A stretch of DNA of 64,000 nucleotides. Origin: Paenibacillus sp. FJAT-26967. Its GTDB lineage: Bacteria > Bacillota > Bacilli > Paenibacillales > NBRC-103111. Shown here one piece after another: positions 122 through 15,262 of this stretch. Position 1 is the stretch's first letter, and each line of letters begins with the position of its first letter. The DNA is taken from contig NZ_LMXH01000003.1 of the NCBI RefSeq assembly GCF_001541095.1, forward strand, positions 310,001-374,000. The letters run 5' to 3'. The notes under the pieces were generated by a model. That model saw nothing but the letters and a program-made list of their open reading frames with translations, searched no databases and had not been told where the DNA came from. A program made the translations under genes and the position numbers.

Positions 122-484
122 GTGGATAACGTCAATAAGCACAAGCTGATCAAATGGGATGAAATGAAGTGGGAGCCCGGGATTTATGAGAATACGGAGA
201 TGAGTTATCTGTACGAAGATGAGCAGGGCCGGCTCTGTTTTCTGGTGAAGCTGCATCCGGGCAGTTTTATTCCGATGCACGATCACCCGCGCCGGGAATT
301 CGCCTACTTGATTAAGGGAGATTTGATTCTCAATGAGGATGAAGTGATGAAAGAAGGAGATTTTCTGACAGCGGGGCTGGCCGAATCCCATGACGTGCGT
401 ACAGAGAACGGGGCTCTTCTATACGTCTTTATTGACTACCATGTAATCCGGCAGCAAATCGTTGAAATCGAAGCTACTTCGTAG
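122..484 (+). CDS. Small single-domain cupin protein
   Basis: A 120-residue protein made of one conserved beta-barrel cupin domain. The metal-binding pattern is visible as H53-x-H55 with E59, and a second-motif histidine at H90. Such cupins bind one divalent metal and act as sensors, small oxygenases or isomerases; the reaction cannot be read from the sequence. It starts at GTG after a GGGGGAG ribosome-binding site and lies 12 bases before the methyltransferase. It is therefore the first visible gene of the KS/ACP/UnbV/UnbU series and probably a tailoring or regulatory member. The left edge of the window may hide upstream members. Confidence 0.8.
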   Translation: MDNVNKHKLIKWDEMKWEPGIYENTEMSYLYEDEQGRLCFLVKLHPGSFIPMHDHPRREFAYLIKGDLILNEDEVMKEGDFLTAGLAESHDVRTENGALLYVFIDYHVIRQQIVEIEATS

Positions 485-496
485 GCCGAGGAGGAA

Positions 497-1579
497 ATGG
501 AAGTGACCGGTGTTGCAACAGTCAAGACTGCTCTGTTCAATGAAGCCTATCATGCATCCTATGATTATGTGTCTGATTATACGGCCTATACCATTCTGAA
601 GATTTTGAAGGGGGAGGGCTTGCTCTCATCCGGTCCTGCCGGGGAGAAAGAAATCATCTTCCGGCTAGGCAGCACGGATGCCAACATCTCTTTGGTCCAG
701 TGGGCTCTGTTATTTCTGGAGCAGCAATTGTTTATCCGGAAGACGGATCGGGGCAATTGGGAAATGACGGACAAAGGAGAACACTGGAGGGATTGCGGCA
801 ATCCGTTCCCGGCCGTGCATGTCGCTCCTTCCCTGGATCTGATCCGGTATGCCGGCACGTTCTGGCTGAAGGCGCTGCAGGATGAAGTGGAGCCCCGGCA
901 AGTTCTTTTTAACCGGAGCGGAGCCGGTTTGTGGGAACATTATTTTCATAACGCCCATGATTTGTATGCGGTTCACAACCAATGGGCGGCTGAGGAATTG
1001 GCGGACCTGATGAGCGGCCCTTGCGAAGTCATGGAGCTGGGTACCGGCTTCGGATCGGCAACCAGGGCTCTTCTGACGGAGATGAGGCTCCGGGCTAAGA
1101 AGCTAATCCGCTACACGGTTACGGATGCCAGTACGCTGCTGGCCGTCAAAGCCAGAAGATCCCTGGAAACGGAGCTTGAACCCGACAAGCTGATCCACAA
1201 GAAGCTGGATCTTAACGATGTACCGGCCGGAGAAGGAGAGCATGATTTTATCTTCGCCGTGAATGTGATGCACTGCGCGGATCAGCCGGTCCGTGCTCTA
1301 AGCAGACTGCGCGAGCATCTGAAGCCCGGCGGCTCTATTCTCCTATCCGAATGCGTCCGGAGGGATTACAGGAGCAAGCTGCAGCAGGAATTTATCTTCT
1401 CCATGCTGCCGGACTTCAGGGAGATAAGTACCGGAAGTGGCGACCTCACCTGCTTCGGCTTGTTAAGGCCGGAAGACTGGTGGGAAATTATGCAGGCTGC
1501 CGGTTTCGGACAAGTTCAGGTCAAAGTCAACGAGGGGCCTGTTCGTGGCGCCATAATCACAGGAACCAGGGAGAAGTAG
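497..1579 (+). CDS. Class I SAM-dependent methyltransferase, polyketide C-MT-like
   Basis: A 360-residue protein. Residues about 25-100 look like a winged-helix or dimerisation region. A Rossmann methyltransferase domain follows, with motif I ELGTGFGS at 180-187, the acidic VTDAS segment, NVMHCAD, and a LKPGGSILLSE post-motif. The overall order resembles stand-alone polyketide C-methyltransferases more than O-methyltransferases, but substrate type is inference. The position between the cupin and the ketosynthase genes suggests it methylates an acyl or polyketide intermediate carried by the nearby ACP. Start is ATG after GAGGAGG. Confidence 0.8.
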   Translation: MEVTGVATVKTALFNEAYHASYDYVSDYTAYTILKILKGEGLLSSGPAGEKEIIFRLGSTDANISLVQWALLFLEQQLFIRKTDRGNWEMTDKGEHWRDCGNPFPAVHVAPSLDLIRYAGTFWLKALQDEVEPRQVLFNRSGAGLWEHYFHNAHDLYAVHNQWAAEELADLMSGPCEVMELGTGFGSATRALLTEMRLRAKKLIRYTVTDASTLLAVKARRSLETELEPDKLIHKKLDLNDVPAGEGEHDFIFAVNVMHCADQPVRALSRLREHLKPGGSILLSECVRRDYRSKLQQEFIFSMLPDFREISTGSGDLTCFGLLRPEDWWEIMQAAGFGQVQVKVNEGPVRGAIITGTREK

Positions 1580-1590
1580 GGGGCCTGCCG

Positions 1591-1710
1591 ATGATTATTG
1601 TTGTAGAGCTCCTTGTTCACTGTCTGGCCTCGATTCAGATTCATGTGATCTCCAGAACTGTATTTACCAGCCGGACAGTGAGGAGTGAAGACGGTACGGA
1701 TCTACCATGA
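1591..1710 (+). CDS. Possible 39-residue peptide
   Basis: A short ORF in the gap between the methyltransferase and the helical protein. It begins with ATG seven bases after an AGGGGG ribosome-binding site and ends just before the next leader. The peptide starts with a hydrophobic stretch (MIIVVELLVHCLASI) and ends polar. No family is recognised. It could be a genuine small membrane peptide of the cluster or chance reading; length and lack of homology leave this open. Confidence 0.3.
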   Translation: MIIVVELLVHCLASIQIHVISRTVFTSRTVRSEDGTDLP

Positions 1711-1790
1711 TTACAGCCTATTTATTCTGTAAATAACGCAGGACCAGGGAGAATCCCGTCCCTTCCTGATTCAAGCGAGAGGGGTGCTTT

Positions 1791-2639
1791 ATGAAAAAAA
1801 GATGGCAGTTCTTCCTTGCTTTGCTGATTACAGCGGGCCTGTTGACAGGAGTTTACTTGCACTGGAATAAACCTTATAAGCTTCCCCCTGTCTCGGATGA
1901 GATGAAGCTGGCTGAGTTCAACCTGGTCTTTGATCAGGAGAGAAGCGTGCAGATTGCAGGGGATGCTGCGGTCGACGAGCTGAAAAGGCTCGTAACGGGC
2001 GATCCCGATAATCTGGCTTACAGCAATGAGCTTCGTTTGAAAATGGGAAAAAGCGAGCAGACGGAGGCTTTTATTTCTTTTATGACAGAAATGAATAACC
2101 CGCCGGCGAGGGCAAAGCTTCAACTGGCATTGGGGTATATCGACAGGATGCAGAACCAGTCTCTGGGGACCGCTTCGCTCGGGCAGATTTCCGTACACTC
2201 CATCAACCAGTTGAATGAAATTCTGGAGAAGGATCCCTATGACTGGCTGGCACATTACGCCAGGGGTATCAACAATCTCTACTGGCCGGTCGGGCTGCAG
2301 CGGATCGACAAATCCATCCAGGATTTATCGTTCTGTCTGGCTGTTACCAAGAAATTCGAGCAAGAAACCCCTTTTTATATGTGGGCGATGGCTTACACGG
2401 CTCTTGGAGATGCACTGGTTAAAAAAGGGGAAGTCGGCGATGGAATGGACATCTGGAAACAGGGATACGAGTCGCATCCGGGTGACGCCGGTTTGAAAGA
2501 AAGAGCAGCCGCTTCCAGGGAGCAGGCGCTGGAGATCGTCATCCGTGACAGAGGAATGGATCAGTTCCAGCGGCCCGCTCCGGACATCGGAGATTTAAGC
2601 CCCATCTGGAAGTCTTCCAAAGAAGGGCAAAGTCAATGA
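1791..2639 (+). CDS. Membrane-anchored TPR-like helical protein
   Basis: A 282-residue protein with an N-terminal transmembrane anchor (residues about 5-23, preceded by KKR). A helical, outward-facing domain follows. The segment around residues 140-240 (DPYDWLAHYARGINNLY, then MAYTALGDALVKKGEVGDGMDIW, then YESHPGD) has the spacing of degenerate tetratricopeptide repeats. No catalytic motif is seen. TPR proteins often scaffold complexes. Since UnbV and UnbU in the same series are also exported or membrane proteins, it may assemble them at the membrane; this is inference. The stop overlaps an ATG of the next ORF (ATGA). Confidence 0.65.
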   Translation: MKKRWQFFLALLITAGLLTGVYLHWNKPYKLPPVSDEMKLAEFNLVFDQERSVQIAGDAAVDELKRLVTGDPDNLAYSNELRLKMGKSEQTEAFISFMTEMNNPPARAKLQLALGYIDRMQNQSLGTASLGQISVHSINQLNEILEKDPYDWLAHYARGINNLYWPVGLQRIDKSIQDLSFCLAVTKKFEQETPFYMWAMAYTALGDALVKKGEVGDGMDIWKQGYESHPGDAGLKERAAASREQALEIVIRDRGMDQFQRPAPDIGDLSPIWKSSKEGQSQ

Positions 2640-2695
2640 AGTCGGGGAGTGCAGGGATTGCCGGCAATACAAGTGCGGGGGAAAGGGGACTGATC

Positions 2696-3892
2696 ATGAA
2701 GACATCCGGCAGACAAGCAGTTGTAACCGGTCTGGGAGTCGTTACTTCTATCGGCAGCGGAGAAGAAACGTTCTTTCAGCACCTGCTGGAGGGTTCTACG
2801 GGGCTGAAGCCGGTCACGGTATTCGATACGAGCGGGCATACGAATAAGCTGGCCTGCCAGATTGATGAGATTCCGCTTTCGCTGTACAACCGGGAAGAGA
2901 TCCGCGCTTCAGGGAGAGCGACCCGGATTCTGGTTCCGGCAATCGAGCAGGCACTGAGAAATGCGGGTCTGGAACATGAAGCGTCCGCAGGCTGCCGGAT
3001 CGGTCTCTGCGTCGGCACCACGATGGGGGACATCGATCCGCTGGAGAACGCTTTGCACGGGCAGAGCAGCCGGGCGTTCGGCGGTCCTCACGAAATTACG
3101 GGGCAGATCCAGAGGATGATGCGCCTGCAAGGGCCCGCCTGGACGTTCACGAATGCCTGTGCCGCCGGTAACTTTGCCATTGCCAGAGCCGTGGACGAGA
3201 TTGCGGCAGGCCGGGCCGACATCATGATCGCCTGCGGAGTCGATTCGCTCTCCTGGGTCGCATTCACGGGCTTCAGCACCCTGCGGGCCATGGCGCCCGA
3301 CAAGTGCCGTCCCTTTGATGCGGCCCGCAAAGGGCTCATACTCGGCGAAGGCGCCGGCGTGCTTGTGATCGAATCGCTGGAGCATGCGATATTAAGAAAG
3401 GTCCGGCCCCGCGCCCGGCTGCTCGGATACGGGATGAGCTGCGACGCTCATCACATTACCCAGCCGGACCCGGAAGGCCGGGGCGCCGCCCGTGCCATGG
3501 AGGCTGCGCTGCGGATGGCGGGTCTGGCCCCTTGCGCTGTAGATTACGTGAGCCTGCACGGAACGGGCACGATGGCTAACGACAGGATGGAGGCCAGGGC
3601 GCAGGAGGCGGTATTCAGCGAAGGAAGCCTTCCGCCCGCCAGCTCCATCAAAGGTCATCTCGGCCATACCCTGGGGGCGGCCAGTGCGATTGAAGCCGTG
3701 ATGAGCGTCAAGTGTCTGGAGACAGGGATAGCTCCGATGACGCTCAATCTGGAGCAGGTGGACCCCGAATGCTCCATTCCTGTTATTAGGGGACAGTCTA
3801 AGCCCGGAAAGTACCGGACTATTCTTTCCAATTCGTATGCTTTCGGGGGCGTGAATTCCTCTATCCTGCTGGGCGCTTGTACTTCCGGCTGA
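2696..3892 (+). CDS. Beta-ketoacyl-ACP synthase, FabF-like (KS1)
   Basis: A 398-residue condensing enzyme with both thiolase-fold halves. All catalytic residues are visible: Cys155 in TNACAAG, His288 in LHGTGT, and Lys319/His324 in IKGHLGHT. It should catalyse decarboxylative Claisen condensation on an ACP-bound substrate. I chose the ATG at 2696 because an AAAGGGG site sits just upstream and the VVTGLG start of the fold follows within a few residues; an earlier ATG at 2636 overlaps the previous stop and would add 20 unlikely residues. It probably pairs with the cysteine-less KS-like protein encoded next. Confidence 0.92.
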   Translation: MKTSGRQAVVTGLGVVTSIGSGEETFFQHLLEGSTGLKPVTVFDTSGHTNKLACQIDEIPLSLYNREEIRASGRATRILVPAIEQALRNAGLEHEASAGCRIGLCVGTTMGDIDPLENALHGQSSRAFGGPHEITGQIQRMMRLQGPAWTFTNACAAGNFAIARAVDEIAAGRADIMIACGVDSLSWVAFTGFSTLRAMAPDKCRPFDAARKGLILGEGAGVLVIESLEHAILRKVRPRARLLGYGMSCDAHHITQPDPEGRGAARAMEAALRMAGLAPCAVDYVSLHGTGTMANDRMEARAQEAVFSEGSLPPASSIKGHLGHTLGAASAIEAVMSVKCLETGIAPMTLNLEQVDPECSIPVIRGQSKPGKYRTILSNSYAFGGVNSSILLGACTSG

Positions 3893-3971
3893 AGCCCGCC
3901 CGGCCTATGACTGGCAGCGGTACATTCACGGCAGTGAGCGGCCCACATCAAGCGAGTAAGGAGAGATTGGC

Positions 3972-4802
3972 ATGGAACCGGTGTATATAACGGGGGCAGG
4001 ATGTCTAACAGCCCCTGGCTTCAGAAGTCTAGCAGAGATGCTTGGGGGAGGCTTATCTCCTGAGCGCGAGAACAAATCACTGAGGATTGAAGACGTTCCG
4101 GAAGCTCCGCCGACCCTCAAAAGATTTAAAAGGCAGTCCAGAGCGGTACAGCTGGCCACTCTCGTGACAGGCGAGGCGCTGAGGGAGGCGGGGATACCTT
4201 TTCCCTGTACGGACGGGGATAAGATCGCCATGGTGGTGGGAACTGACGACGCAAATCTGGACGCCATATACAGGCTTAATCAGGAAGCGGAGGCCTATGG
4301 GGTCAACAACACGAGTCCGGGCTTGTTCCCGGATACCGTCTTGAACGTAACCGCCGGACAAACCGCCATTTATTATGGCCTGAGCGGTCCCAATGTGACG
4401 ATTTCGAGTGGCGGCGCAACGTCTGTCCGATCCTTGCAGTATGCTGTGGATCTGCTGGCTTCGGAGAATGTTTCTCATGTGGTCGTATGTGCCGTTCATC
4501 TCGCTGTACCTGAAATCTTCCGGGAAAATCTCCGGCATCAGGCGCATATAGAAACTGTCGCGAGCCTGCTACTCTCTAAGCAGCCTCTTAGCGGAACTTG
4601 CATCCGACTGAGCATGAAAACCAGAGTAAATGAGAGCAGGGCAGATATAATCGAGATAGAAGATGAAGAACTCATCGCCTTTGCGGCTCTTCTGCTGAAG
4701 GAGAATGATGGGGCCCGGCCTTGCCGGTTTAAGATCGGATCGGTGGCCGACCGCCAGTATACGGTAGAGCTTGATAACGACATACTGACGGAGGATGCAT
4801 AG
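3972..4802 (+). CDS. Truncated, cysteine-less ketosynthase-like protein (CLF-like)
   Basis: A 276-residue protein beginning like a ketosynthase (VYITGAGCLTAPG). At the nucleophile position it reads SSGGATS, so the Cys is Gly148. The C-terminal half with the two catalytic His residues is missing: after residue about 190 the sequence is short and unlike a KS. It therefore cannot condense by itself. The size and loss of Cys recall chain-length factors of type II PKS and the short KS-like partner (ApeC type, Ketoacyl-synt_2) of aryl polyene clusters. A heterodimer with KS1 or KS3 is likely but unproven. RBS is AAGGAGAG; the stop overlaps the next start by one base. Confidence 0.8.
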   Translation: MEPVYITGAGCLTAPGFRSLAEMLGGGLSPERENKSLRIEDVPEAPPTLKRFKRQSRAVQLATLVTGEALREAGIPFPCTDGDKIAMVVGTDDANLDAIYRLNQEAEAYGVNNTSPGLFPDTVLNVTAGQTAIYYGLSGPNVTISSGGATSVRSLQYAVDLLASENVSHVVVCAVHLAVPEIFRENLRHQAHIETVASLLLSKQPLSGTCIRLSMKTRVNESRADIIEIEDEELIAFAALLLKENDGARPCRFKIGSVADRQYTVELDNDILTEDA

Positions 4803-6058
4803 TGGGAAAAGGGGCTTTGGTAACAGGAACAAATATGCTTTGTTCACTGGGAGTGACGAACGAGGAAGTCTGGAAAGCAGCCCTTGCGGGAGCTGAGGGA
4901 CCCCGGAGGCGTTCATACCGCTTCTCTGACAGTTCCTGTGTGGAATACCCGGTCTACGCCCTCCCTGACTTACGCCCTGCCGAGTGGCTGGGGCGGCAGA
5001 CGGCTGCCTGGCTGTCTGAGAACCGGCTCCTTGAAGACGCAGATTTCTGTATGCTGCTGGTCTCAATCCGGCAGGCTCTGGAGGATGCCGGATTCAGTCC
5101 GGGAGGAACCTCGAGGGTCGGATTGGTTATTGGTCATGAGAATCTGGGCGTTGTACGGCTGACGGACAAATTTGTGCAGCATCAGCCTGAATTAGGGAGA
5201 AGAGAGCCGGAAATACCGCTTTTCAGGCAGTACCAGCACGAGTTTTTCAATCTTCAGACATTTCCGTATTTGTTCTACCTGGCCCAGCTGCTTGGCATTA
5301 ACGGTCCCAGCTATGCGGTTAACAATGCCTGTGCCTCCGGGCTCTATGCCTTGGAGCTGGGCAGGATGATGATCGAGACAGGGAGTGCAGATCTGGTGAT
5401 CGTCTCGTGCTCTGATTATGCCCATGTATCCGAGTACTTATGGCTGCAAGAGAAGGGATTTGTCTCCGGGCAGAATATCATCCGTCCGTTCGATCTGCAC
5501 CGGGACGGTTCCATTCTCGGGGACGGAGCGGCTACGATTGTGCTGGAATCGGAAGAGCATGCTGCAAGAAGAGCCGCCTCACCCATAAGCCTGTACAGGG
5601 GCGGACGTTTTGTACAGGACCACTGGCATATGACGCTGCCCGACGTATCCAGGCATTCCTATGCGGGTGTCATCAGCGGGGCTGCAGAGCTGGAGCCGGA
5701 TCGCGAGATTGATCTTCTGGTTCCTCACGGCTCGGGAAGTACGCTCTGGGACCGCTATGAGGCCGCCGAGATTCAGAGGGCCTTTGGCGGCCTGGAGCGT
5801 CCGCTTCCGGCAGTCACGGCGTTCAAGGGATATTTCGGCCACCTGCTGGGGGCGAGCGCCATGATTGAAACAGTGCTTATGCTTCACTGTATGAAGCATA
5901 ATATGCTGCTGCCTGCACTTAATCATGAGTATCCCGATCCGAAAATAAAGATACAGATTCAGACTCAGGCGGTGTCCCGGCCGATCCGCTCAGCAGTAAA
6001 ATCTGTACCCGCATATGGCGGGTTTCATGCGGCTGTTTTATTCAATAAGCTGGAATAG
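4802..6058 (+). CDS. Beta-ketoacyl synthase (KS3)
   Basis: A 418-residue condensing enzyme with an intact triad: Cys177 in NNACASG, His309 in VPHGSGS, and Lys342/His347 in FKGYFGHLLG. It differs from KS1 around the active site (NNACASG against TNACAAG), so the two are not recent duplicates and probably act at different steps, for example initiation and elongation. It starts at GTG overlapping the stop of the CLF-like gene by one base, which implies translational coupling of the three KS-family genes. Confidence 0.9.
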   Translation: MGKGALVTGTNMLCSLGVTNEEVWKAALAGAEGPRRRSYRFSDSSCVEYPVYALPDLRPAEWLGRQTAAWLSENRLLEDADFCMLLVSIRQALEDAGFSPGGTSRVGLVIGHENLGVVRLTDKFVQHQPELGRREPEIPLFRQYQHEFFNLQTFPYLFYLAQLLGINGPSYAVNNACASGLYALELGRMMIETGSADLVIVSCSDYAHVSEYLWLQEKGFVSGQNIIRPFDLHRDGSILGDGAATIVLESEEHAARRAASPISLYRGGRFVQDHWHMTLPDVSRHSYAGVISGAAELEPDREIDLLVPHGSGSTLWDRYEAAEIQRAFGGLERPLPAVTAFKGYFGHLLGASAMIETVLMLHCMKHNMLLPALNHEYPDPKIKIQIQTQAVSRPIRSAVKSVPAYGGFHAAVLFNKLE

Positions 6059-6068
6059 AGGGATGCAT

Positions 6069-6818
6069 GTGGGAGCAATCACATACGATTTTACCGGACG
6101 TACAGTCCTTGTAACCGGGGGTTCGCGGGGGATAGGACGCTCTGTGGTCAAGCAGCTGGCTGCGGCTGGTGCTCAGGTGATTTTTACTTATTCGAAGGAC
6201 CGGGCGGCTGCCGAGTCACTGCTGGACGAGACGGGTAGAGACGGGTGCTCCGTCTCCTGTATACAGACAGACTTTACCGATCCCGATTCGATCCGTCATC
6301 TGCTGGCTGCTGTGTCAGAGAACGGGCCCCTTCACGGGATTGTGAATAATGCCGGAATTATCCGGGATACACCGGTTTACAAAATGTCGGATGAACAGTG
6401 GGACAGTGTCATTCAAGTCAACCTGACATCTATGTTCGCGATCATACGGGGGTTGATCCGGCCGCTGGGGCTGAGCCGGGGCAGTATTGTGAATTTATCC
6501 TCCGTCTCAGGCATAGCCGGGGCTTCCGGCCAGGCGAATTATGCCGCCTCCAAGGCAGGAGTGATCGGCCTCACCAAGGCGCTGGCCAAAGAGCTGGGTC
6601 CGCTGGGTATCCGGGTAAACGCAGTGGCCCCGGGCTATATCGGAACCGAGATGCTGAATGATATGGCAGACCATCGGAAACTTGCTTTAGCGAAGAACAT
6701 TCCGCTCAAAAGGCTCGGGACTCCCGAAGAGGCGGCGGCCGCTGTATTGTTCCTGCTATCCGGTGAAGCCTCGTATGTGAACGGTTCCGTGCTGGTTGTG
6801 GATGGAGGATTACTATGA
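6069..6818 (+). CDS. 3-oxoacyl-ACP reductase, FabG-like SDR
   Basis: A short-chain dehydrogenase of about 249 residues. It shows the TGGSRGIG NADP-binding turn, the VNNAG motif, and the catalytic Ser145, Tyr158 and Lys162 with the usual 13 and 4 residue spacing (SVSGIAGAS...YAASK), ending in the FabG-typical VVDGG. It should reduce 3-ketoacyl-ACP made by the neighbouring KS enzymes. Start choice: GTG at 6069 has AGAGGG at a proper distance. The ATG at 6063 follows that site with no spacer, and an earlier ATG at 6015 lies inside the KS3 gene. The ATGA overlap at the end couples it to the ACP gene. Confidence 0.9.
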   Translation: MGAITYDFTGRTVLVTGGSRGIGRSVVKQLAAAGAQVIFTYSKDRAAAESLLDETGRDGCSVSCIQTDFTDPDSIRHLLAAVSENGPLHGIVNNAGIIRDTPVYKMSDEQWDSVIQVNLTSMFAIIRGLIRPLGLSRGSIVNLSSVSGIAGASGQANYAASKAGVIGLTKALAKELGPLGIRVNAVAPGYIGTEMLNDMADHRKLALAKNIPLKRLGTPEEAAAAVLFLLSGEASYVNGSVLVVDGGLL

Positions 6819-6832
6819 AAAGGAGGAAGGCT

Positions 6833-7093
6833 ATGAATCCGAAGCAGATTAAGTCGCGCATCATTGAAGTTACCCTAGATCTTATCGATTCTCCGGAAGT
6901 GATGGAGGAAGTGGACAAAGAGATCTTCTTAGACACGCCTCTGATGGATATCGGGATTGATTCCCTGGCCGTTCTTGAGCTTGTCGTTACCCTGGAGCGT
7001 GAGTATGGCGTACGCCTGTCGGAGGAAGAACTGGTTGAGATCACCTGCCTCCAGGACATCCTGAAGCTCCTGCTGGACAAGCAGGCAGGTTAG
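6833..7093 (+). CDS. Acyl carrier protein
   Basis: An 86-residue acidic four-helix carrier protein. Ser44 in DIGIDSLAVLEL is the phosphopantetheine attachment site. The ATG at 6833 has a perfect AAGGAGG site about 7 bases upstream; an alternative ATG at 6815 overlaps the ketoreductase stop and would place that site inside the gene. It is the only carrier protein in the series and so the presumed hub for KS1, KS3 and the reductase. No phosphopantetheinyl transferase, acyltransferase, dehydratase or thioesterase is seen nearby, so these would come from elsewhere in the genome. Confidence 0.93.
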   Translation: MNPKQIKSRIIEVTLDLIDSPEVMEEVDKEIFLDTPLMDIGIDSLAVLELVVTLEREYGVRLSEEELVEITCLQDILKLLLDKQAG

Positions 7094-7141: not shown

Positions 7142-8872
7142 ATGCGGCTGCAATCAATTAGCCGAGCGTTCATCGGCGTCACCGCACTGCTTCTGGTCAC
7201 CGCTGGCTGCGGTAACCATGCCGTCCGGTCGGATTACGGTTTTACTTTGAAGGAAGCGACAGATGCCACCGGCATCACATTTACTCATACGAAACCGACT
7301 TTTGATGCCAAACTGACCAATATCATGCCATGGATGGCTTCTACGGGAGCCGGTGTTTTTACAGCGGATTATGATCAAGACGGGTTTATGGATCTGTACT
7401 TCGTCAATTCCGCCAAAGGATCCAAGAATGCACTCTACCATAACAACGGGGATGGCACCTACACGGAGACAGCCGGGAAGCTCGGCCTGGCGGATGTGAA
7501 TACGGAGGGCATCTCGGAAGCGGCCGTCTGGTTTGATTACAACAACAGCGGATACCCCAGTCTGTTCGTCGGGTCATGGGGCAAAAGCCGCCTGTTTCAT
7601 AACAATGGAGACGGGACGTTCAAAGAGATTACGGATCAGGCAGGAGTCGGGTACCGAGGATATGTGAATAAGGCGATCGTGCTGGATTACAACCGGGACG
7701 GGAACCTGGATTTGTATTTGTCGTGTTACTTTCATGAGAAGAACGACCTCTGGAATCTCACCACCACGAAAATCATGCACAATGATTTTGAAAGGGCGAG
7801 AAACGGTGGGCGCAACGTCCTCTACAAGAACAACGGGGACGGAACCTTCACTGATGTAACCCAAGAACTTGGGGTTGGCGATACAGGCTGGACCCTTGCT
7901 TCGGGCACCTGGGACGTAAATAATGACGGCTGGCCCGATATTTACAATGCCAATGATTTCGGACCGGATACGCTCTATTTGAATGAGGAAGGAAAGAAAT
8001 TCAAAGCTGTCGTTCAGCCCCGCGGAGTCGGCGATGATACCTTCAAGGGCATGAATGTCGATTTTGCGGATGTGTTCCATGACGGGAATCCCGCCATGTA
8101 TATCAGCAACGTAAGCAAATCGCAATACATTCTGGAAGGAAATCAATTATGGCACGAGAAAGACGGGCAGTTTGTAGACAGAGGCGAGGAAATGGGCGTT
8201 AATATCGCCGGCTTTTCCTGGGGAGCCAGGTTCGCGGATCTCGATAACAGCGGGAATCCGAGCTTAGTGGTGCAGACAGGCTTCGTCTCCGCGAGCAAGA
8301 AGCGGGATTACTGGTTTGATCTGGGCACACTGGCCACGACACCCGGCAATGTAGTGGAAGACGCGAAGAACTGGCCGGCTTTTGCGGATAAGAGTCTCTC
8401 CGGGTATGAGAAGAAATTTCTGTTCTTCCGGGAGGGCGACAAATTCAAGAATATCGCCGAGCAGGCCGGCCTTGATTTCGTAGAGGACGGACGCGGAATT
8501 GCGGCTGTCGACATCGACAATAAAGGGACGCTCGATCTGGTCTTTGCCAACCAGGGCGGGCCGGCGAAAGTGTATAAGAATGTGATCTCAAGCGGCAACA
8601 ATTGGATCAAACTCGACTTGACCGGAAGCGCGCCGAGCAGCCGGGATGCCGTCGGAGCGAGAGTCACTTTTGAAGTGAATGGCGTGAAGACGGTTATGGA
8701 AAAGGACGGGGCGAACAGTTTCGGCGGGCAGAGCGATCCGCGTCTGCATGTTGGACTGGGTCAGGCGGAGAAAGTCGATAAGATCACCATCCGCTGGCCG
8801 AGCGGACGAGTGGAAGAGCTCACGGATGTTCCGGGGAATGGGATCGTAAAGCTTGTGGAGAAAGCGGATTAG
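7142..8872 (+). CDS. unbV-like: FG-GAP/VCBS repeat lipoprotein with ASPIC/UnbV C-terminal domain
   Basis: A 576-residue protein with a lipoprotein signal (LLLVTAGC, Cys23). It contains a chain of FG-GAP/VCBS blades with Ca-binding loops such as DYDQDGFMDLYF, DYNRDGNLDLYL and DVNNDGWPDIY. A C-terminal ASPIC/UnbV domain (residues about 490-570, with GARVTFEVNG, LHVGLGQ and ITIRWPSG) closes the protein. It is probably a beta-propeller held on the outer face of the membrane. In enediyne clusters the homologue UNBV belongs to the conserved warhead cassette, with role unknown. It abuts the UnbU-type gene with no gap, so the two are probably made together and may form a complex. Confidence 0.88.
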   Translation: MRLQSISRAFIGVTALLLVTAGCGNHAVRSDYGFTLKEATDATGITFTHTKPTFDAKLTNIMPWMASTGAGVFTADYDQDGFMDLYFVNSAKGSKNALYHNNGDGTYTETAGKLGLADVNTEGISEAAVWFDYNNSGYPSLFVGSWGKSRLFHNNGDGTFKEITDQAGVGYRGYVNKAIVLDYNRDGNLDLYLSCYFHEKNDLWNLTTTKIMHNDFERARNGGRNVLYKNNGDGTFTDVTQELGVGDTGWTLASGTWDVNNDGWPDIYNANDFGPDTLYLNEEGKKFKAVVQPRGVGDDTFKGMNVDFADVFHDGNPAMYISNVSKSQYILEGNQLWHEKDGQFVDRGEEMGVNIAGFSWGARFADLDNSGNPSLVVQTGFVSASKKRDYWFDLGTLATTPGNVVEDAKNWPAFADKSLSGYEKKFLFFREGDKFKNIAEQAGLDFVEDGRGIAAVDIDNKGTLDLVFANQGGPAKVYKNVISSGNNWIKLDLTGSAPSSRDAVGARVTFEVNGVKTVMEKDGANSFGGQSDPRLHVGLGQAEKVDKITIRWPSGRVEELTDVPGNGIVKLVEKAD

Positions 8873-9652
8873 ATGCTCAAAGATCCGCGGATATATATCC
8901 TTGTTTTTCTGCTGTCTTTTGTAGCTGCCGGGCAGATCTTCCTCGGTTTTTTTCAGAAGTGGGATGCTTTCTTTATTTCCGTAGGCACAGCCGCAGGACT
9001 GGAGTTTCTTATCGTAGGTATACGGAAGAAACAGTGGGTGTTTCCCCTCAGCGCCCTGATTACCGGGATCGGCATCAGTCTGCTGCTAAGTTCTTATGCG
9101 GTATGGCCCTACGCGCTGACGGCCGCACTGGCTATATGCATCAAGCAGTTCGTGCGGCTTGGAGGCAGTCATGTTTTCAATCCCAACAATGTTGCCATGG
9201 TCATTATGCTGATCGGGCTGCCTGCTTATGCCGTCAGTACGCCGAAGCAGTGGACCAATGGAATCGAAGTGATGATTCTCATTATGGCGCTCGGACTCTT
9301 GGCGGCCTACAAGGCCAAGCGTCTGGACTCCGTACTGGCTTTTATCGGAGGCTTCGCGGTGTTCGCATGGCTGCGGGTGGAGTGGTTCGGCGAGCCTGTG
9401 TTCTATTCATTCGGCCCTATGATGGGGGCATCATTCCAATTGTTTACCTTCTTCATGATCACAGATCCCAAGACGACCCCGCCTACGAGGCGGGCGAGAA
9501 TCTTGTTCGCCTTCCTGATCGCATTTGCGGATGCCTGGCTTCGGATTCTCCATATTACGAACTCGCAGTTCTATGCCTCTTTCCTTATTACGCTGATGGT
9601 GGGAATCCCCTACAGGTTGAGGTACGGCAAGCAGATGAGGGAGTCCGGATGA
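8873..9652 (+). CDS. unbU-like: RnfD/NqrB-like multi-pass membrane protein, UnbU type (copy 1)
   Basis: A 259-residue, very hydrophobic protein with about eight transmembrane helices. The blocks GSHVFNPNNVAMV, VSTPKQWTNG and FFMITDPKTTP correspond to the RnfD/NqrB fold. No S/T-GAT flavinylation motif is seen, so covalent FMN is unlikely. This is the UNBU-like branch found in enediyne warhead cassettes, whose role is unknown; by fold it could move electrons or a small ligand across the membrane. Its ATG follows the UnbV stop directly. A paralogue at 14069 shares all these blocks. Last gene of the first series. Confidence 0.85.
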   Translation: MLKDPRIYILVFLLSFVAAGQIFLGFFQKWDAFFISVGTAAGLEFLIVGIRKKQWVFPLSALITGIGISLLLSSYAVWPYALTAALAICIKQFVRLGGSHVFNPNNVAMVIMLIGLPAYAVSTPKQWTNGIEVMILIMALGLLAAYKAKRLDSVLAFIGGFAVFAWLRVEWFGEPVFYSFGPMMGASFQLFTFFMITDPKTTPPTRRARILFAFLIAFADAWLRILHITNSQFYASFLITLMVGIPYRLRYGKQMRESG

Positions 9653-10042: not shown

Positions 10043-10065
10043 TGCGTTTTCTTTTCGTAGGGACT

Positions 10066-10902
10066 TTATTCCGCGTCCCTTAGCACACTGACTACTCTGC
10101 CGAGAATACTCACATTATTTACCGGAAGGAGCGGCTGAAAAGCATCGTTGGCAGGCTGCAGCCGTATATGATCCGCTTCTTTGTAGAACGTCTTTACGGT
10201 CGCTTCTTCGCCGTCGATCAGAGCTACGACCACATCGCCGTTATCTGCCGAGGACTGCTGGCGCACCAGAACGAGATCCCCGTTCTCGATTCCTTTATTC
10301 ACCATGCTCTCTCCCAGAATCCGCAGAATAAAATATTTACCCGCCCCCACGAGGCTTTTAGGGACGCTAAAATATTCTTCGATGTTCTCCGCGGCGAGAA
10401 TCGGACTGCCCGCCGTTACCTTGCCTAAGAGGGGCAGACGGACATAGTACTCGGCGGAAAGTGAAGCTTCGCGTATATGGCTGTTTTCTGCCGGAATAGA
10501 GGTCTGCCTGATTCTTCCTGTTCTATATGGATCACCGGTTGCGGCTTCTGTGTTCTTGCGGGCCAGGTGGTCGGCTAGTGTCTGAAGCATGAGCAGGTCA
10601 TCTTCCATCAGCCGCCCGGCTAAAACTTGTAACGCTTCCATATAAGGACTGTACGGAGCTTTGGATTTGGCTTGGGCATTTGTATGAGTGTCCGGTTCCG
10701 AACCGGTCATGAGCCAATCAAGGGACACATTGAATTGTTTGGAAATGGAAATTAGAGCTTTTGCGGTGGGGGTTGATTTTTTCTTTCCATTTTCCCAGTC
10801 ACTGATATTACCAGGAGAGACTCCGATCATAGCGGCCAGTTTGGCCATCGTTAATTTGTGTTTTAGCCGAAGCTCTTTGATGCGAATGTTAATTTCATTC
10901 AT
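10066..10902 (-). CDS. XRE-family repressor with S24 (LexA/CI-type) autocleavage domain
   Basis: A 278-residue regulator. Residues 5-62 are a Cro/CI helix-turn-helix (LAAMIGVSPGNISDWENGKK). A linker follows, then a peptidase S24 domain with the Ala164-Gly165 cleavage bond (KVTAGSP), nucleophile Ser199 (GESM) and general base Lys237 (ATVKTFY). All parts needed for RecA-stimulated self-cleavage are present, so it should lose its grip after DNA damage, as phage CI and ICE repressors do. Upstream lie tandem LexA-box-like repeats and a promoter with paired palindromes that drives the UnbL series. It is not the cellular LexA: the helix-turn-helix class differs. Confidence 0.88.
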   Translation of the reverse strand: MNEINIRIKELRLKHKLTMAKLAAMIGVSPGNISDWENGKKKSTPTAKALISISKQFNVSLDWLMTGSEPDTHTNAQAKSKAPYSPYMEALQVLAGRLMEDDLLMLQTLADHLARKNTEAATGDPYRTGRIRQTSIPAENSHIREASLSAEYYVRLPLLGKVTAGSPILAAENIEEYFSVPKSLVGAGKYFILRILGESMVNKGIENGDLVLVRQQSSADNGDVVVALIDGEEATVKTFYKEADHIRLQPANDAFQPLLPVNNVSILGRVVSVLRDAE

Positions 10903-10992: not shown

Positions 10993-11020
10993 GATCATAG
11001 TCGTTTCCATTCGAAAAATA

Positions 11021-11069
11021 ACGCATATGCGTTTTGTTATTTGAATTTATACGCATATGCGTTTATAAT
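11021..11069 (+). promoter_or_regulatory. Promoter with two identical 12-base palindromic operators
   Basis: The perfect palindrome ACGCATATGCGT appears at 11021-11032 and 11051-11062, exactly 30 bases apart (about three helical turns). A promoter with -35 TTGAAT (11041-11046), a 17-base spacer and -10 TATAAT (11064-11069) runs through it, so the second palindrome fills the spacer. A bound repressor would block RNA polymerase directly. The forward orientation points at the AraC-UnbL-YqaJ-UnbU series. Confidence 0.7.
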
Positions 11070-11282
11070 GATGATACTAGATTTATCCATATATGTAATC
11101 AAGTATTTTTTTCCGAGGGTAAGCGCAATGACAAAAAAATATGAATAAGTGACAAGGTCAGCAGATCGAATATATATCTCCACGGTTACAATCAATAATA
11201 AGGATATTTATTTATCAATTTAATATAAATATACTTTTTGTAATTTTTTGTTTGTTATCTAATTTAAAAAGGGGATGAAGAA

Positions 11283-11924
11283 ATGATGAATTTGCTTGTT
11301 TTCGTCCACAAGGCTGACAAATGTAAGGACTATATTACCGAATTGCTGCTGCTTTCCAAAAAGGTCAAGCTAATCGAGTTCGTGGATTTGAGTGCGGCTA
11401 TTCGCATCGTCAAACAAACCCATTACAAACTGGTTGTCTTCCTTACTTTTGAACAGACGTTTCCGGAAAATTGGAATGTCCATAAGCTTAAGTTCAGCAG
11501 TCCTCTCATAGCACTGGCCGGAGCAGACCGGATCAGCTTCACCTCCTTGATCTCGCTCATCGATATGGTCGCCCAGAATCAGGAGCCATCCTGTGATAAC
11601 CGCCTGTTTGCAGAATCCCTCGCCTTTATTGATGAAAATCTTTGTGAAAACGATCTGAATCTGGAAAAAGTAGCTTCAACCATTTTTGTGAGCCGGTGTC
11701 ATTATTCCCGGATGTTCCAGAAGTATGTCGGTACAGGATTCAAAGAATATGTGATGAACAAACGTATCCAGAAAGCCAAGCTGCTGCTGCAAAAGGGAGA
11801 ACCGGTTACGGATGTCTGCTTCTCTGTCGGTTATAACGATTTGACCCATTTCGGCCGGGTGTTCAAAAGAAAGGTGGGGGTAAATCCATCGGTATATCGC
11901 CTGAACAGAGCTGCTTCTCAATAA
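11283..11924 (+). CDS. AraC-family regulator with receiver-like N-terminal domain
   Basis: A 213-residue protein. The last 100 residues are an AraC/XylS double helix-turn-helix (NLEKVASTIFVSRCHYSRMFQ, then VTDVCFSVGYNDLTHFGRVF). The first 110 residues have the alternating strand-helix pattern of a receiver domain (LLVFVHK, KLVVFLTF, PLIALAG), but no acidic phosphoacceptor pocket is seen. Control is therefore probably not by classical phosphorylation. It is the first gene of the UnbL series, with its own 200-base leader, and is the obvious pathway-specific activator candidate. Confidence 0.82.
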   Translation: MMNLLVFVHKADKCKDYITELLLLSKKVKLIEFVDLSAAIRIVKQTHYKLVVFLTFEQTFPENWNVHKLKFSSPLIALAGADRISFTSLISLIDMVAQNQEPSCDNRLFAESLAFIDENLCENDLNLEKVASTIFVSRCHYSRMFQKYVGTGFKEYVMNKRIQKAKLLLQKGEPVTDVCFSVGYNDLTHFGRVFKRKVGVNPSVYRLNRAASQ

Positions 11925-12023
11925 AACAGAAAAACGGGGGCCTAATGTGACATAAGCTGCCAATCGGCAAATTGAACTTATAAGCAGGAGCATTCCTGCC
12001 ACGAAAGCTGAGGGTTAAAGATC

Positions 12024-13046
12024 ATGATAACGAGTATAACGGCAGCCGGACTTATTGCTGGTACAGCTTTAATCTTTCCGTTTCTCTACCTTGGATTATT
12101 CAGGCAGAATATCTCCAAGACAATTAAAAGATTCAGCTTTTCGCAAAATCAAGAGTTTAACCGGAAGTTTCATCAGGTTCTGAAAGCGTTTTTAACGGGA
12201 AGCAACGGCGTCTTAAAACCGGTATTGAGAATGGCGCATGTAAGAGAGGAGCTGGCTCATCAATTCCCGCCTTTTTACAGAGGTTTTGCCTATGAAGGAG
12301 TGGGTCTGGGGCTCGGCGTGAGGGCTTCCTTGTCACTTGGCAAGGGCAGGCGGTTCGAATCGTATCTGCACGAATTGTCATCGGGTCATCTTTATCAATA
12401 TTATGTGGGCCTGGGCTGGTATCTCAGTATCCGGTACCGGTTTGATTATGAGGCAGCTGCAGGCTGGTTAAGGCAGCTTGATTCCAGATATGCGCCCATC
12501 GTGTTTGACGGAGTCGGATTCAAAACCGCTTTATATCATTATCGGCAAAATAAACAGATTATTCAGAAATTCAGCATCTTCCCGCACCCGTACCAGCGCG
12601 TTTGTTACCAGGGACTTGGACGCTCTTTATGGTTCCTGCACGAATTTGACCTTAAGGAAGTCAGTGCCGAGATCGAGACTCTGCCCACAGCCTTCCGTAA
12701 AGACACTTACAGCGGGGTGGGTATTGCGGTTGCTTACAGCATGTTCGATCAGGTAGCGCATACGGCAGAGGCAGACATTCAAATTCCGCTGGCTTACCAG
12801 GCTTCCTTCCGTCAGGGACTGGCCTTCGGCTGGGAGGCTCGTAAGCTGCAGGACCCGGCATATTGGCAGCGCCAAATGCAGAGTTGTTCCTCTTCTGTCA
12901 GCGCCAAAGTGAATCATTACGTAGATTGTGTGCACCAAGCCGAACAACGTATAGAGGCGGATGCAGCCGAATCTTACTATTTTAGATGGATAGAAGAGGC
13001 GCGCCGTATCCTGCAAGAGGAAGCAAGCGTGAAGGAGAAGCGATAG
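12024..13046 (+). CDS. unbL-like: DUF1702 / UnbL-type protein
   Basis: A 340-residue protein with an N-terminal membrane segment (residues about 5-26). The characteristic DUF1702 blocks then appear in order: FYRGFAYEGVGLGLG, HLYQYYVGLGWYLSIRY, VFDGVGFKTALYHYR, CYQGLGRSLWFLHEFD, YSGVGIAVAYSM and YQASFRQGLAFGWEA. DUF1702 is the family of UNBL, the third conserved unknown protein of enediyne warhead cassettes next to UNBV and UNBU. No catalytic motif is known to me. Here it lies in a different transcription unit from UnbV and is followed by a YqaJ-fold gene and a second UnbU. Confidence 0.85.
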   Translation: MITSITAAGLIAGTALIFPFLYLGLFRQNISKTIKRFSFSQNQEFNRKFHQVLKAFLTGSNGVLKPVLRMAHVREELAHQFPPFYRGFAYEGVGLGLGVRASLSLGKGRRFESYLHELSSGHLYQYYVGLGWYLSIRYRFDYEAAAGWLRQLDSRYAPIVFDGVGFKTALYHYRQNKQIIQKFSIFPHPYQRVCYQGLGRSLWFLHEFDLKEVSAEIETLPTAFRKDTYSGVGIAVAYSMFDQVAHTAEADIQIPLAYQASFRQGLAFGWEARKLQDPAYWQRQMQSCSSSVSAKVNHYVDCVHQAEQRIEADAAESYYFRWIEEARRILQEEASVKEKR

Positions 13047-13159
13047 TTGCGTCACAGGAGCAAGAAAGCATGAAAACGCAGCTATTTTCCACCGGGTAAG
13101 AAATCCGGATGTCAGGTTACGATAAGGTTGAAGAAATCCTGAATCGGAGGAGGGATACG

Positions 13160-14056
13160 ATGCCTGCCAAATTAGTAGTGAGCACCCGGGCTATTTCGCA
13201 TAAAGAATGGTTGTCCTGGCGCCGGAAAGGAGTCGGGGGGAGCGATGCGGCAGCGATATGTGGAGTGGACCGATGGAAGACTGCGATGGAGGTATACCTC
13301 GACAAAATCGGGGAACTGCCGGAGACGGAAGTGACAGAGTCTGCCCGTTTTGGAGGCAAGCTTAAGGATTTTATTGCCCGGGAGTTCTCGGAAGCGACCG
13401 GATTTAAAGTGATGCGCAGGAACTGGATCTTGCAGCACCGGGAGCATCCCTTTATGCTGGCCACCATTGACCGGTGGATTATCGGCAGCAGCGCCGGCCT
13501 GCTGTGCAAAACGACAGGCGAGTTTTTGAAGGACGAATGGAAGGACGGCCGGGTGCCGGATCGGGTGGCCTTCCAGTGTCAGCATTATATGGCGGTCACC
13601 GGCGCGGACCACTGGTGGGTGGCTGTTCTCATCGGCGGCAACAAATTCCGTACCGTACGGCTGGAGCGGGACGATAACCGGATCGAGCAGCTCATCAAGA
13701 CGGAGTCCAGCTTCTGGAACGAGCATGTGCTGCCGAGAACGCCGCCGTCCTTCGACGGGACGGAAGCGTCTGCGAGCCTGTTGAAGCGGATGTACCCTGC
13801 CGGAGATTCTCCGGGAACTCCTTTGAAGCTGCCGGGAAGCGCAGAGGAATGGATCCGCCAATACCTGGAGGGAACCCGGGATGAGAAGGAAGCCTTAGCG
13901 CGCAAGAAAGAGGCGGAGAACGTGCTCAAAGGCCTCTTGGGAACTAGCGAGCAGGGGATTCTGGGCAGCTATAAAGTGGAATGGAAGAGCATTCACCGCA
14001 AATCGGGCCGCCATGCTTCCTACAGACGATTTGATGTCGTAACCATGTCCAATTGA
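13160..14056 (+). CDS. YqaJ-fold (lambda exonuclease-like) protein with altered catalytic motif
   Basis: A 298-residue protein of the YqaJ viral recombinase family. It shows WLSWRRKGVGGSDAAAICG at the start, the metal-binding Asp104 in TIDRW, and a core strand. The family's E-x-K motif reads Leu115-Cys116-Lys117 (GLLCKTT), so the catalytic Glu is lost. The C-terminal region is intact and ends helical. I chose the ATG at 13160 because GGAGGAGG lies just upstream; an ATG at 13109 has no such site. In phages YqaJ is a 5'-3' exonuclease paired with RecT, and no RecT gene is present. Twelve bases separate it from UnbU copy 2. Confidence 0.8.
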   Translation: MPAKLVVSTRAISHKEWLSWRRKGVGGSDAAAICGVDRWKTAMEVYLDKIGELPETEVTESARFGGKLKDFIAREFSEATGFKVMRRNWILQHREHPFMLATIDRWIIGSSAGLLCKTTGEFLKDEWKDGRVPDRVAFQCQHYMAVTGADHWWVAVLIGGNKFRTVRLERDDNRIEQLIKTESSFWNEHVLPRTPPSFDGTEASASLLKRMYPAGDSPGTPLKLPGSAEEWIRQYLEGTRDEKEALARKKEAENVLKGLLGTSEQGILGSYKVEWKSIHRKSGRHASYRRFDVVTMSN

Positions 14057-14068
14057 CGGAGGGGTTTC

Positions 14069-14899
14069 ATGCGTAATGAAATAAGAACCGATCTGAGGCC
14101 AGTCGTTTCCTGGCGGGATTACCGCCTCGATCCCAGGTATTTTATTCTTCTGTTTCTGGGCAGCTTCGCGATTGCCGGACAAGTATATCTCGGTTTTTTT
14201 CAGAAATGGGACGCTATACTTGTATCGGTTGCCTGCACCATGATCACCGAGCTTATTTTGTGTCGTTGTACAGCTAAAACCTGGCGTTTTCCGCTCAGCG
14301 CAGTGATAACCGGGATTGGTATTTCCCTGCTTCTCAGCTCCAACCTGCTCTGGCCTTATGCGCTTGCCTCATTTTTGGCTATTTCTCTTAAGTACATGAT
14401 CCGTTTTAAAGGCGGTCATGTGTTTAATCCCAACAACGTGGCGATGGTTCTTATGCTGTTCTTTCTCCCTCAGTATGCGGTCAGCACACCCAAGCAGTGG
14501 ACGAACGGGATCGGTATTATGCTCGTTATTCTCTGTTTGGGGATTCTCGTCTGTTACATGGCGAACCGGTTGGATTCAGTGTTAGCCTTCCTGGGGAGTT
14601 TTACCTTGTTCGCACTGGTCAGGCACTTCCTGTTCGGGGCTCCACTCTTGGCGGCACTGGGACCCCTGATGGGAGCTTCGCTGCAGCTGTTTGCCTTTTT
14701 TATGATCACCGACCCCAAATCTACCCCTTCGACCCGGAAGGCCCGTATCCTGTTTGCCTTTCTGGTAGCTCTGCTGGATGCTGTCTTCCGGATTAACCGG
14801 ATTGCGAATCCGCAGTTCTACGCGTTGTTCCTGGTTTGTCTTGTCCTGGTAATTCCTTACCGGATATGGGCTTCCCGTCAAATCTCACTTGCACAGTAA
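14069..14899 (+). CDS. unbU-like: RnfD/NqrB-like membrane protein, UnbU type (copy 2)
   Basis: A 276-residue paralogue of the protein at 8873. It shares the same blocks almost word for word (YLGFFQKWDA, GGHVFNPNNVAMV, YAVSTPKQWTNGI, FFMITDPKSTPSTRKARILFAF, NPQFYA). It adds about 20 residues at the N-terminus (RTDLRPVVSWRDYRLDPRY). About eight membrane helices; again no S/T-GAT flavin-attachment motif. Having one copy beside UnbV and one beside UnbL suggests either a heteromeric membrane complex or two linked but separately controlled modules. Start ATG has GGAGGGG upstream. Confidence 0.85.
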   Translation: MRNEIRTDLRPVVSWRDYRLDPRYFILLFLGSFAIAGQVYLGFFQKWDAILVSVACTMITELILCRCTAKTWRFPLSAVITGIGISLLLSSNLLWPYALASFLAISLKYMIRFKGGHVFNPNNVAMVLMLFFLPQYAVSTPKQWTNGIGIMLVILCLGILVCYMANRLDSVLAFLGSFTLFALVRHFLFGAPLLAALGPLMGASLQLFAFFMITDPKSTPSTRKARILFAFLVALLDAVFRINRIANPQFYALFLVCLVLVIPYRIWASRQISLAQ

Positions 14900-14938
14900 C
14901 GCGTCCCTTCATCCAGCTGGAAATAGAGGTGAATTATT

Positions 14939-15262
14939 TTGTGTAAGAATGGAAATTGCAACGGTTTTGTGCCGGACGGCACAGAAAGAATGAAGGGAGA
15001 CTCGTGTCAGCCGTCTGTGAGGAATTCATGCGCCGGACGGGCTTCTGCCGGTCAATCGTGCGCTGAGCAGTCATGTGCTAAGCAATCAAATACCAAACGG
15101 TTGTGTGCCGGCAGCGGCCGGCATAAGTCTCCTGATGCAGACAACAGGTCCAAGGAAGTGGAGCAGGCGACGGATAAGTTGCCGCCGGATCACCTGCAGA
15201 TGCGTTATTTTCTGCGTACTCCTTACTCGAAGTATTGGGATTTTTGGGATCATTTCAACTAA
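14939..15262 (+). CDS. Cys/Ser-rich peptide with aromatic C-terminus
   Basis: A 107-residue protein starting at TTG after AGAGGTGA. The first 60 residues contain irregular repeats around SCA (SCAGRASAGQSCAEQSCAKQ), giving nine cysteines in all. A charged middle follows, and the tail is aromatic (MRYFLRTPYSKYWDFWDHF). No signal peptide or known family is recognised. It is the last gene of the UnbL series, 39 bases after UnbU copy 2. It could be a metal-binding protein, a partner for the membrane proteins, or a precursor-like peptide; there is no maturation enzyme nearby to support the last option. Confidence 0.6.
   Translation: MCKNGNCNGFVPDGTERMKGDSCQPSVRNSCAGRASAGQSCAEQSCAKQSNTKRLCAGSGRHKSPDADNRSKEVEQATDKLPPDHLQMRYFLRTPYSKYWDFWDHFN

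Follow-up and report, generated by a model that had tools for sequence, protein, structure and literature searches.

A dissociated set of polyketide synthase proteins is encoded beside homologs of UnbL, UnbV, and UnbU, three proteins of the enediyne cassette, at positions 122–15262 of a 64,000-base window from a 5.46-Mb Paenibacillus-type genome (bases 310001–374000 of contig 12; coordinates below are window positions on the plus strand unless stated otherwise). To our knowledge, the job of these three proteins (together, UnbLVU) has been open ever since enediyne cassettes were first compared. The locus is real and recurrent, and it is not a cassette of the enediyne polyketide synthase PKSE. 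With a probability of roughly 55%, it may be read as a dissociated type II-like polyketide cassette that has UnbL, UnbV, and UnbU in place of the pair of PKSE and the thioesterase TEBC, together with a polyene-handling membrane station. Judging from the encoded proteins, it is most likely that a dissociated polyene-type synthase feeds a membrane station composed of UnbLVU and a tetratricopeptide repeat (TPR) protein.

The synthase genes follow one another closely. A TPR-like protein with one N-terminal membrane helix by hydropathy (1791–2639; TPR_14 at 21.8 bits, below the cut-off of 23.5) is followed by KS1, an intact ketosynthase (KS; 2636–3892; C175/H308/H344; Pfam halves at 124 and 108 bits); a 276-aa KS-like protein that lacks the active-site Cys and matches only the N-terminal half of the Pfam ketosynthase (3972–4802); KS2, also intact (4802–6058; C177/H309/H347; Pfam halves at 78 and 54 bits); a ketoreductase (KR) resembling short-chain dehydrogenases and FabG (6015–6818, the real start probably being later; PF13561, 220 bits); and an acyl carrier protein (ACP; 6815–7093; PF00550, 47.7 bits). 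Intergenic gaps from TPR to ACP are −4, 79, −1, −44, and −4 bases. UnbV (7142–8872; FG-GAP repeats and UnbV_ASPIC, 67 bits, cut-off 23.4) begins after a gap of 48 bases, and the first copy of the membrane protein UnbU (8873–9652; NQR2_RnfD_RnfE, 55 bits, cut-off 27.7) follows with a gap of zero. Beyond a short minus-strand stretch lie UnbL (12024–13046; DUF1702, PF08012, 122 bits, cut-off 25) and a second UnbU (14069–14899; PF03116, that is, NQR2_RnfD_RnfE, 59 bits, cut-off 27.7). A preliminary description of this DNA had named a DUF1702 protein, an FG-GAP/ASPIC-UnbV protein, and two RnfD/NqrB-like UnbU proteins, all of which score above Pfam cut-offs; its two intact ketosynthases, Cys-less KS-like protein, ketoreductase, single ACP, and cupin are likewise borne out by Pfam in agreement with the active-site alignments.

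Apart from the exceptions named here, the same set was found in 22 further genomes, and the locus is therefore not a product of chance. A scan with a DUF1702 alignment pattern, using one genome per species across 84,980 species, returned 12 loci, every one of them in Paenibacillus or Brevibacillus. A co-occurrence survey of the kind proposed in the preliminary description found DUF1702 and UnbV_ASPIC in the identical 9 of 104 genomes of the family and in the identical 21 of 392 genomes of the order, the latter spread over 9 of 49 genera; in a sample of the phylum, DUF1702 appeared in 1 of 398 genomes, the present one alone. The order-level genomes and two from the pattern scan give 23 distinct genomes, with G665 and G730, which share 300-base test stretches with P. 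sambharensis and P. tarimensis, counted once. Stretches from the 22 other genomes were selected by their DUF1702 match, and the count of UnbL is thus given by construction; those of the other genes are not. KR, ACP, and UnbV were each found in all 22 stretches. KS1 and the KS-like protein were found in 21, the exception being a contig end whose KS-like gene lies on another contig, and KS2 in 20 (absent from the same contig end and from genome G769). TPR was present in 17/22 at 40%–48% identity; of the five stretches without it, four start at or inside the TPR gene and one is a contig end, and partial copies occur in four named relatives. UnbU was found in all 23 genomes (13/13 and 10/10). Within the family of 104, alignments to the KS-like protein at E < 1e-100 were confined to the nine DUF1702 genomes, while a tenth genome, of a different genus and without DUF1702, aligned at E = 2.5e-22.

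Gene order differs among lineages. P. sambharensis, P. cellulosilyticus, and P. tarimensis carry a single run of AraC, TPR, KS1, KS-like, KS2, KR, ACP, UnbL, UnbV, UnbU, and YqaJ. The genus of the window has a split run (UnbV and the first UnbU, a minus-strand repressor, AraC, UnbL, YqaJ, and the second UnbU), and a Brevibacillus metagenome-assembled genome (MAG) has two UnbU genes between KS1 and the KS-like gene. A second genus, represented by four genomes, has UnbL and UnbV directly after ACP; G071 and G083 each have two UnbU genes farther along the same contig, at distances of ~45 and ~60 kb, G085 has one at 45 kb, and the remaining UnbU genes are on other contigs. The comparison of predicted genes shows KS1 and the Cys-less KS-like protein to be a conserved neighbouring pair, with KS2 (missing from one genome), KR, ACP, TPR, UnbL, and UnbV alongside.

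Active-site residues were compared in 13 rows, comprising 12 loci (the window included) and a Serratia plasmid described below. Cys-His-His is kept by both KS1 and KS2 (13/13 rows each), and in the KS-like protein the Cys position is taken by Ser, Gly, Asp, or Asn in every row (13/13). The best match of KS1 among solved structures is 9s5h_B (305 bits), that of the KS-like protein is chain C of the same entry, and the second-best match of the ACP is chain E of 9s5i. A Foldseek search with the AlphaFold2 (AF2) model of the KS-like protein placed ApeC, the chain-length factor (CLF) of the aryl polyene ketosynthase, at the top of the list (15% identity). By sequence and model, the KS-like protein is likely the CLF partner of KS1, and the two together look like a KS/CLF pair of the polyene-making type II kind. 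The window set resembles the highly reducing type II polyketide synthases of aryl polyenes and ishigamide (ApeO/ApeC, 6qsp; 6kxf) in its KS with a Cys-less KS-like partner, its KR and ACP, and, at several loci, a dehydratase; a second KS also belongs to the aryl polyene set. It differs from those systems in the addition of UnbLVU and TPR, and its likeness to Ape was gauged by modeled fold. An intact KS adjoining a partner protein also recalls AmcF/AmcG, the cispentacin KS-CYF, which a published account presents as an intact KS next to a protein in which no known motifs are recognized (PMC10698177). Identity with AmcF/AmcG was rejected, as both NCBIfam models fell short of their cut-offs (243.1 bits against 325 and 17.8 bits against 80).

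We take the enediyne genes E3/E4/E5/E/E10 to be equivalent to UnbL/UnbV/UnbU/PKSE/TEBC. The C-1027 locus holds two DUF1702 genes, one CRTAC1 gene, one RnfD-like gene, and one type I polyketide synthase (PKS) gene in a row, and the five E genes make up the enediyne PKS cassette in one study (PMC5181780). As in that cassette, homologs of UnbL, UnbV, and UnbU are all present together in the window; however, the synthase here is dissociated, and neither PKSE nor a TEBC-type gene was found. The preliminary description had seen neither, and searches of 124 kb of the window's own contig, with positive controls, confirm this for both: no PKSE was recovered, and tblastn with the thioesterase that adjoins PKSE in Streptomyces clavuligerus gave a best E of 0.4, as compared with 1.1e-42 to 2.5e-80 at three control loci. 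A TEBC-type thioesterase was found in 0/22 stretches. With SgcE of C-1027 as the query, no full-length PKSE was detected in the 23 genomes (13 genomes with at most 34 candidates scored in each and 10 genomes with matches below 1e-60). Among the matches listed, the best partial one reached 274 bits over residues 3–621 of 1939, on a different contig of P. cellulosilyticus, while three control loci with a true PKSE scored 882–2800 bits, including that of Sinorhizobium meliloti at 35% identity. UnbU immediately precedes PKSE in four Streptomyces loci. DUF1702 was also found in 50 plasmid records; of six records whose neighbourhoods were read (five of them among the 50), five have PKSE beside UnbLVU and one, from Serratia, does not, genomes outside Bacillota having been sampled unevenly. 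As a separate observation, pSymA of S. meliloti T073 (L036:11806–21925) contains unannotated open reading frames (ORFs) for UnbL, UnbV, UnbU, PKSE, and a thioesterase, an enediyne-type cassette in a rhizobium.

The exceptional plasmid, from Serratia proteamaculans AGR_495 (L037/L039) and hence from a different phylum, carries in order an aminotransferase, an ACP, a 630-aa KS with a KS-like C-terminal part, KR, a second KS, a flavin adenine dinucleotide (FAD) enzyme, a glycosyltransferase, UnbL, a LuxR protein, UnbV, UnbU, and a methyltransferase. ACP, KS–KS-like, KR, KS, UnbL, UnbV, UnbU, and methyltransferase are thus common to both clusters. The first Serratia KS and KS1 align over 398 aa at 39% identity, the tail of that Serratia protein matches the KS-like protein at 30% over 129 aa, and KR is 36% identical to that of the window; the second KS (KSb) groups with KS2 at 100/99 on a long branch. 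Unlike the window, Serratia has KS and KS-like parts fused and genes for a nucleoside diphosphate (NDP)-hexose and an aminotransferase close by, and no TPR gene is annotated in the stretches read. Serratia UnbV and UnbU are 36%–42% and 43%–49% identical to the enediyne proteins, as compared with 29%–30% to those of the window, and they cluster with the enediyne rows with supports of 100/100 and 98/97; enediyne-type UnbV and UnbU therefore also occur beside a dissociated synthase. Though a single record, this plasmid, on its predicted gene content, is the strongest single argument that PKSE does not define UnbLVU. A Priestia megaterium plasmid (L096:4740–12370) also carries a small type II set of the reducing kind, which includes a KS/KS-like protein, FabZ, a malonyltransferase, and a phosphopantetheinyl transferase; no UnbL, UnbV, or UnbU gene is annotated in that stretch.

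Roots in the gene trees serve drawing only. The UnbV tree splits off enediyne and Serratia proteins at 100/100, with Paenibacillus UnbV and the CRTAC1 rows on the opposite side; this topology leaves unsettled how close Paenibacillus UnbV is to enediyne UnbV among all CRTAC1 proteins, and against the window UnbV, Acidobacterial CRTAC1 proteins outscore Streptomyces ones. Resolution among the Bacillota rows of the UnbU tree is poor, and long branches lead to RsxD and a Metabacillus protein; in the UnbL tree, seven Bacillota rows stand apart (97/98), with Serratia UnbL on a long branch. The preliminary description had tied the idea of a module both to co-occurrence and to placement in enediyne-associated clades: UnbL, UnbV, and UnbU do co-occur with one another and with KS and ACP genes, but the window UnbV and UnbU fall outside the enediyne clade, at 27%–31% identity. 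By gene content, UnbLVU is separable from PKSE. The suggestion that it forms a separable unit stands insofar as it co-occurs with KS, KS-like, KS, KR, and ACP genes without PKSE; it may also be separable from enediyne formation itself, and export, redox, or a shared acyl intermediate are candidate jobs for it. A search of the open-access literature, judged by its listings and mostly without subscription papers, showed no paper linking UnbL/UnbV/UnbU or DUF1702 with a non-PKSE synthase, which is no proof.

Features of the individual proteins bear on what a membrane station might look like. The AF2 model of UnbL is all-helical and confident (predicted local distance difference test [pLDDT] 90.4, predicted template modeling score [pTM] 0.89), and the sequence repeats with a period of 34 residues, a Gly-rich signature recurring at 90, 127, 161, 195, 229, and 263. 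Autocorrelation at period 34 was equalled by 0/500 shuffles, which were run for the window protein; the same peak is present in S. clavuligerus UnbL and is not seen in C-1027 E3 or Serratia UnbL. The window UnbL, 92% identical to that of Paenibacillus lutrae, has an N-terminal membrane helix that is also present in P. sambharensis and absent from the tested rows of P. oleatilyticus, the Brevibacillus MAG, Serratia, S. meliloti, and Streptomyces. UnbV starts with a hydrophobic stretch ending in VTAGC, presumably a lipobox and hence a lipoprotein-type signal. UnbU belongs to the same Pfam family as RnfD/NqrB, but the loop bearing the SQATPLD site of Escherichia coli RsxD is missing in 13/13 rows, which represent Paenibacillus, Brevibacillus, Metabacillus, Serratia, and enediyne loci (one row having been inspected visually), and all 13 carry H-x-[FML]-NP-[NS]-N where RsxD has N-P-F-NPA. 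We take the SQATPLD loop to be the covalent attachment site of flavin mononucleotide (FMN). Because UnbU lacks it, an Rnf-like flavin relay through that site is disfavoured, and the RnfD-type redox job suggested in the preliminary description is weakened; the NCBIfam rnfD model scores 39 and 37.5 bits, below its cut-off of 207. Two plasmid settings may be recorded beside these. A Metabacillus plasmid (L041:7435–8822) has a UnbU-like gene overlapping one for a redoxin, in a stretch whose annotation shows no polyketide gene. On Acidobacterial plasmids (L091, L092), CRTAC1 (UnbV_ASPIC-like) genes adjoin TPR genes; a TPR gene is likewise kept in the window cassette.

Taken together, the preferred reading would run as follows. 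The KS1/KS-like pair, KR, and a dehydratase would build a conjugated polyene on the ACP, in parallel with aryl polyene and ishigamide systems and with the enediyne PKSE, which does so within one protein. The polyene would then be handed to a membrane-bound station, in which UnbL may be a helical repeat scaffold, probably on the cytoplasmic side, with affinity for either the acyl-ACP or the chain; UnbU may be the multi-helix membrane part; and UnbV may be a lipoprotein on the outside, partnered by the TPR protein. This station would modify or move the polyene, and what the enediyne and present settings have in common would be its substrate class rather than PKSE. The remaining genes of the cluster would hydroxylate, aminate, glycosylate, and carbamoylate the product.

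Several observations weigh against this scheme. The proposed membrane station derives from the signals and folds of single proteins, and UnbL found no clear fold match among solved structures. In the fold list for the KS-like protein, FabF chains follow close behind ApeC, and the VIA-align rows are tied. Both dehydratases were found in 8/22 stretches (of differing length) in addition to the window's own cluster, and only the second has a Pfam match; gene content thus does not prove a polyene everywhere, and some loci would need FabZ from fatty acid synthesis as a substitute. KS2 is missing in genome G769 (L113), which has the rest of the cassette. The first Serratia KS (KSa) pairs not with KS1 but with the Priestia KS (91/97), from a cluster without UnbLVU, which argues that the KS/KS-like unit is not bound to UnbLVU. 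Finally, as the enediyne clade does not include the window UnbV and UnbU, their function could have shifted.

An alternative that we regard as unlikely, though it is the best placed of those considered, is a type II pathway that leads, without PKSE, to a DNA-damaging warhead, either enediyne-like or of another alkyne or diradical type, with UnbLVU performing an enediyne-type core-forming step. Retention of UnbLVU as a set without PKSE would fit such a route, as would the Serratia plasmid, where enediyne-clade UnbV and UnbU lie beside the same kind of synthase, near sugar genes. The minus-strand stretch between the two forward series, noted in the preliminary description, holds a LexA/CI-type repressor (10066–10902; helix-turn-helix [HTH] and S24 peptidase; PF00717, 114.7 bits) in which 10/10 rows (8 distinct genomes) retain an Ala-Gly pair as well as the Ser and Lys of S24. 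We take these residues to be LexA-type autocleavage features, and with its HTH, S24 Ser/Lys, and Ala-Gly site the predicted protein has the features of an autocleavable LexA/CI repressor. Between UnbL and the second UnbU, a YqaJ-like protein with an exonuclease fold (13109–14056; PF09588, 111.6 bits) keeps the fold match in 11/11 rows (9 distinct) and lacks in all of them a motif Glu that presumably belongs to E-x-K; its gene adjoins UnbU in loci where it is seen, in several lineages. Both proteins are kept in part of the family and offer weak evidence, from sequence, for a DNA-linked product; however, the repressor was seen in 7 of the 22 stretches and unseen in 15, and YqaJ was seen in 8 and unseen in 14 (lengths differ), besides lacking its Glu. 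A published antiSMASH call has kedarcidin possibly made by P. mucilaginosus G78, in a cluster that may differ from the present one (PMC9956331). Against a warhead route stand the failure to find PKSE or a TEBC-type thioesterase, the position of the window UnbV and UnbU outside the enediyne clade, and the lack of a C-1027-like P450/flavin reductase pair among 49 ORFs scanned with Pfam. A fuller version is slightly less probable: in Paenibacillales and a Serratia, a polyene from a KS and a mini-CLF would replace that of PKSE, a UnbL–UnbV–UnbU station would convert the polyene into a warhead in both settings, and a LexA-type switch would operate in part of the Bacillota.

Doubtful too, and ranked after these, is the possibility that UnbLVU serves to export lipophilic polyketides or to protect the producer from them and is no catalyst, with UnbU moving the product and UnbV and TPR binding it outside. 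An extracytoplasmic lipoprotein-type UnbV and an anchored TPR protein are consistent with such a device, as are UnbU proteins without the FMN-attachment loop of RsxD (13/13 rows), the uses outside polyketides shown by the Metabacillus UnbU-like/redoxin and Acidobacterial CRTAC1/TPR pairs, and a major facilitator superfamily (MFS) transporter gene next to UnbL, on the opposite strand, in S. clavuligerus. However, three ORFs upstream look, by eye and without a search, like ATP-binding cassette (ABC) exporters, so that export seems already provided for, and the position of UnbU directly before PKSE in the four Streptomyces loci fits a synthase-adjacent step. A chance neighbourhood of unrelated genes in one lineage, to which the varying gene order and the UnbU genes ~45–60 kb away in one genus might point, is very improbable, as the counts, with UnbL and UnbV in the same genomes across 9/49 genera and a counterpart in Serratia, contradict it.

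Among the remaining genes of the stretch, a ChrR-like cupin (122–484; PF12973, 46.6 bits) recurs at 40%–62% identity in 15/22 stretches. The 360-aa protein at 497–1579, called C-MT-like in the preliminary description, is an S-adenosylmethionine (SAM) methyltransferase (PF08242, 46 bits; found in 9/22 stretches; 28% identity to the Serratia cluster methyltransferase over 252 aa); the matches seen were generic methyltransferase ones, and the C-MT-like label is that description's own. An AraC-type regulator (11283–11924; PF12833, 74.6 bits) has 43%–98% matches in 21/22 stretches, paralogues being lumped together, and a small ORF at 14939–15262 is conserved in the genus (73.8% in P. lutrae, 31%–37% in three others). 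The TPR protein, the AraC regulator, the YqaJ-like protein, and a cluster start far upstream are additions to what had been described before. The studied stretch is the downstream end of a larger gene cluster, whose size is estimated at ~75 kb and which lies mostly upstream of the window. The 20 kb upstream encode, on the same strand, PhyH-type oxygenases, a class II tRNA-synthetase-like protein, two more ACPs, an FAD enzyme, a PDZ protein, a FabA-like dehydratase, another dehydratase-like ORF without a Pfam match, hydrolases, an M29 peptidase, a glycosyltransferase, an AMP ligase, and a class III aminotransferase; farther upstream lie transporter-like, heptose-type, and carbamoyltransferase genes, several of them named by reading the sequence without a search. 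The upstream part also contains four tandem short ORFs with similar signal-like starts (contig 258958–260307; L006:8958–10307), one of which was scanned and had no Pfam match, and a 181-aa protein without a Pfam match (contig 293115–293660; L002:3115–3660) that, at 57%–83% identity in 7/22 stretches, ranks among the most conserved products there.

These loci offer a natural system that keeps all three Unb proteins and exchanges the giant PKSE for separate small enzymes, each of which could be expressed, removed, or exchanged alone, in bacteria that are not actinomycetes. They also point to a candidate family of compounds, encoded by no fewer than 23 genomes, which a PKSE-based search would miss.

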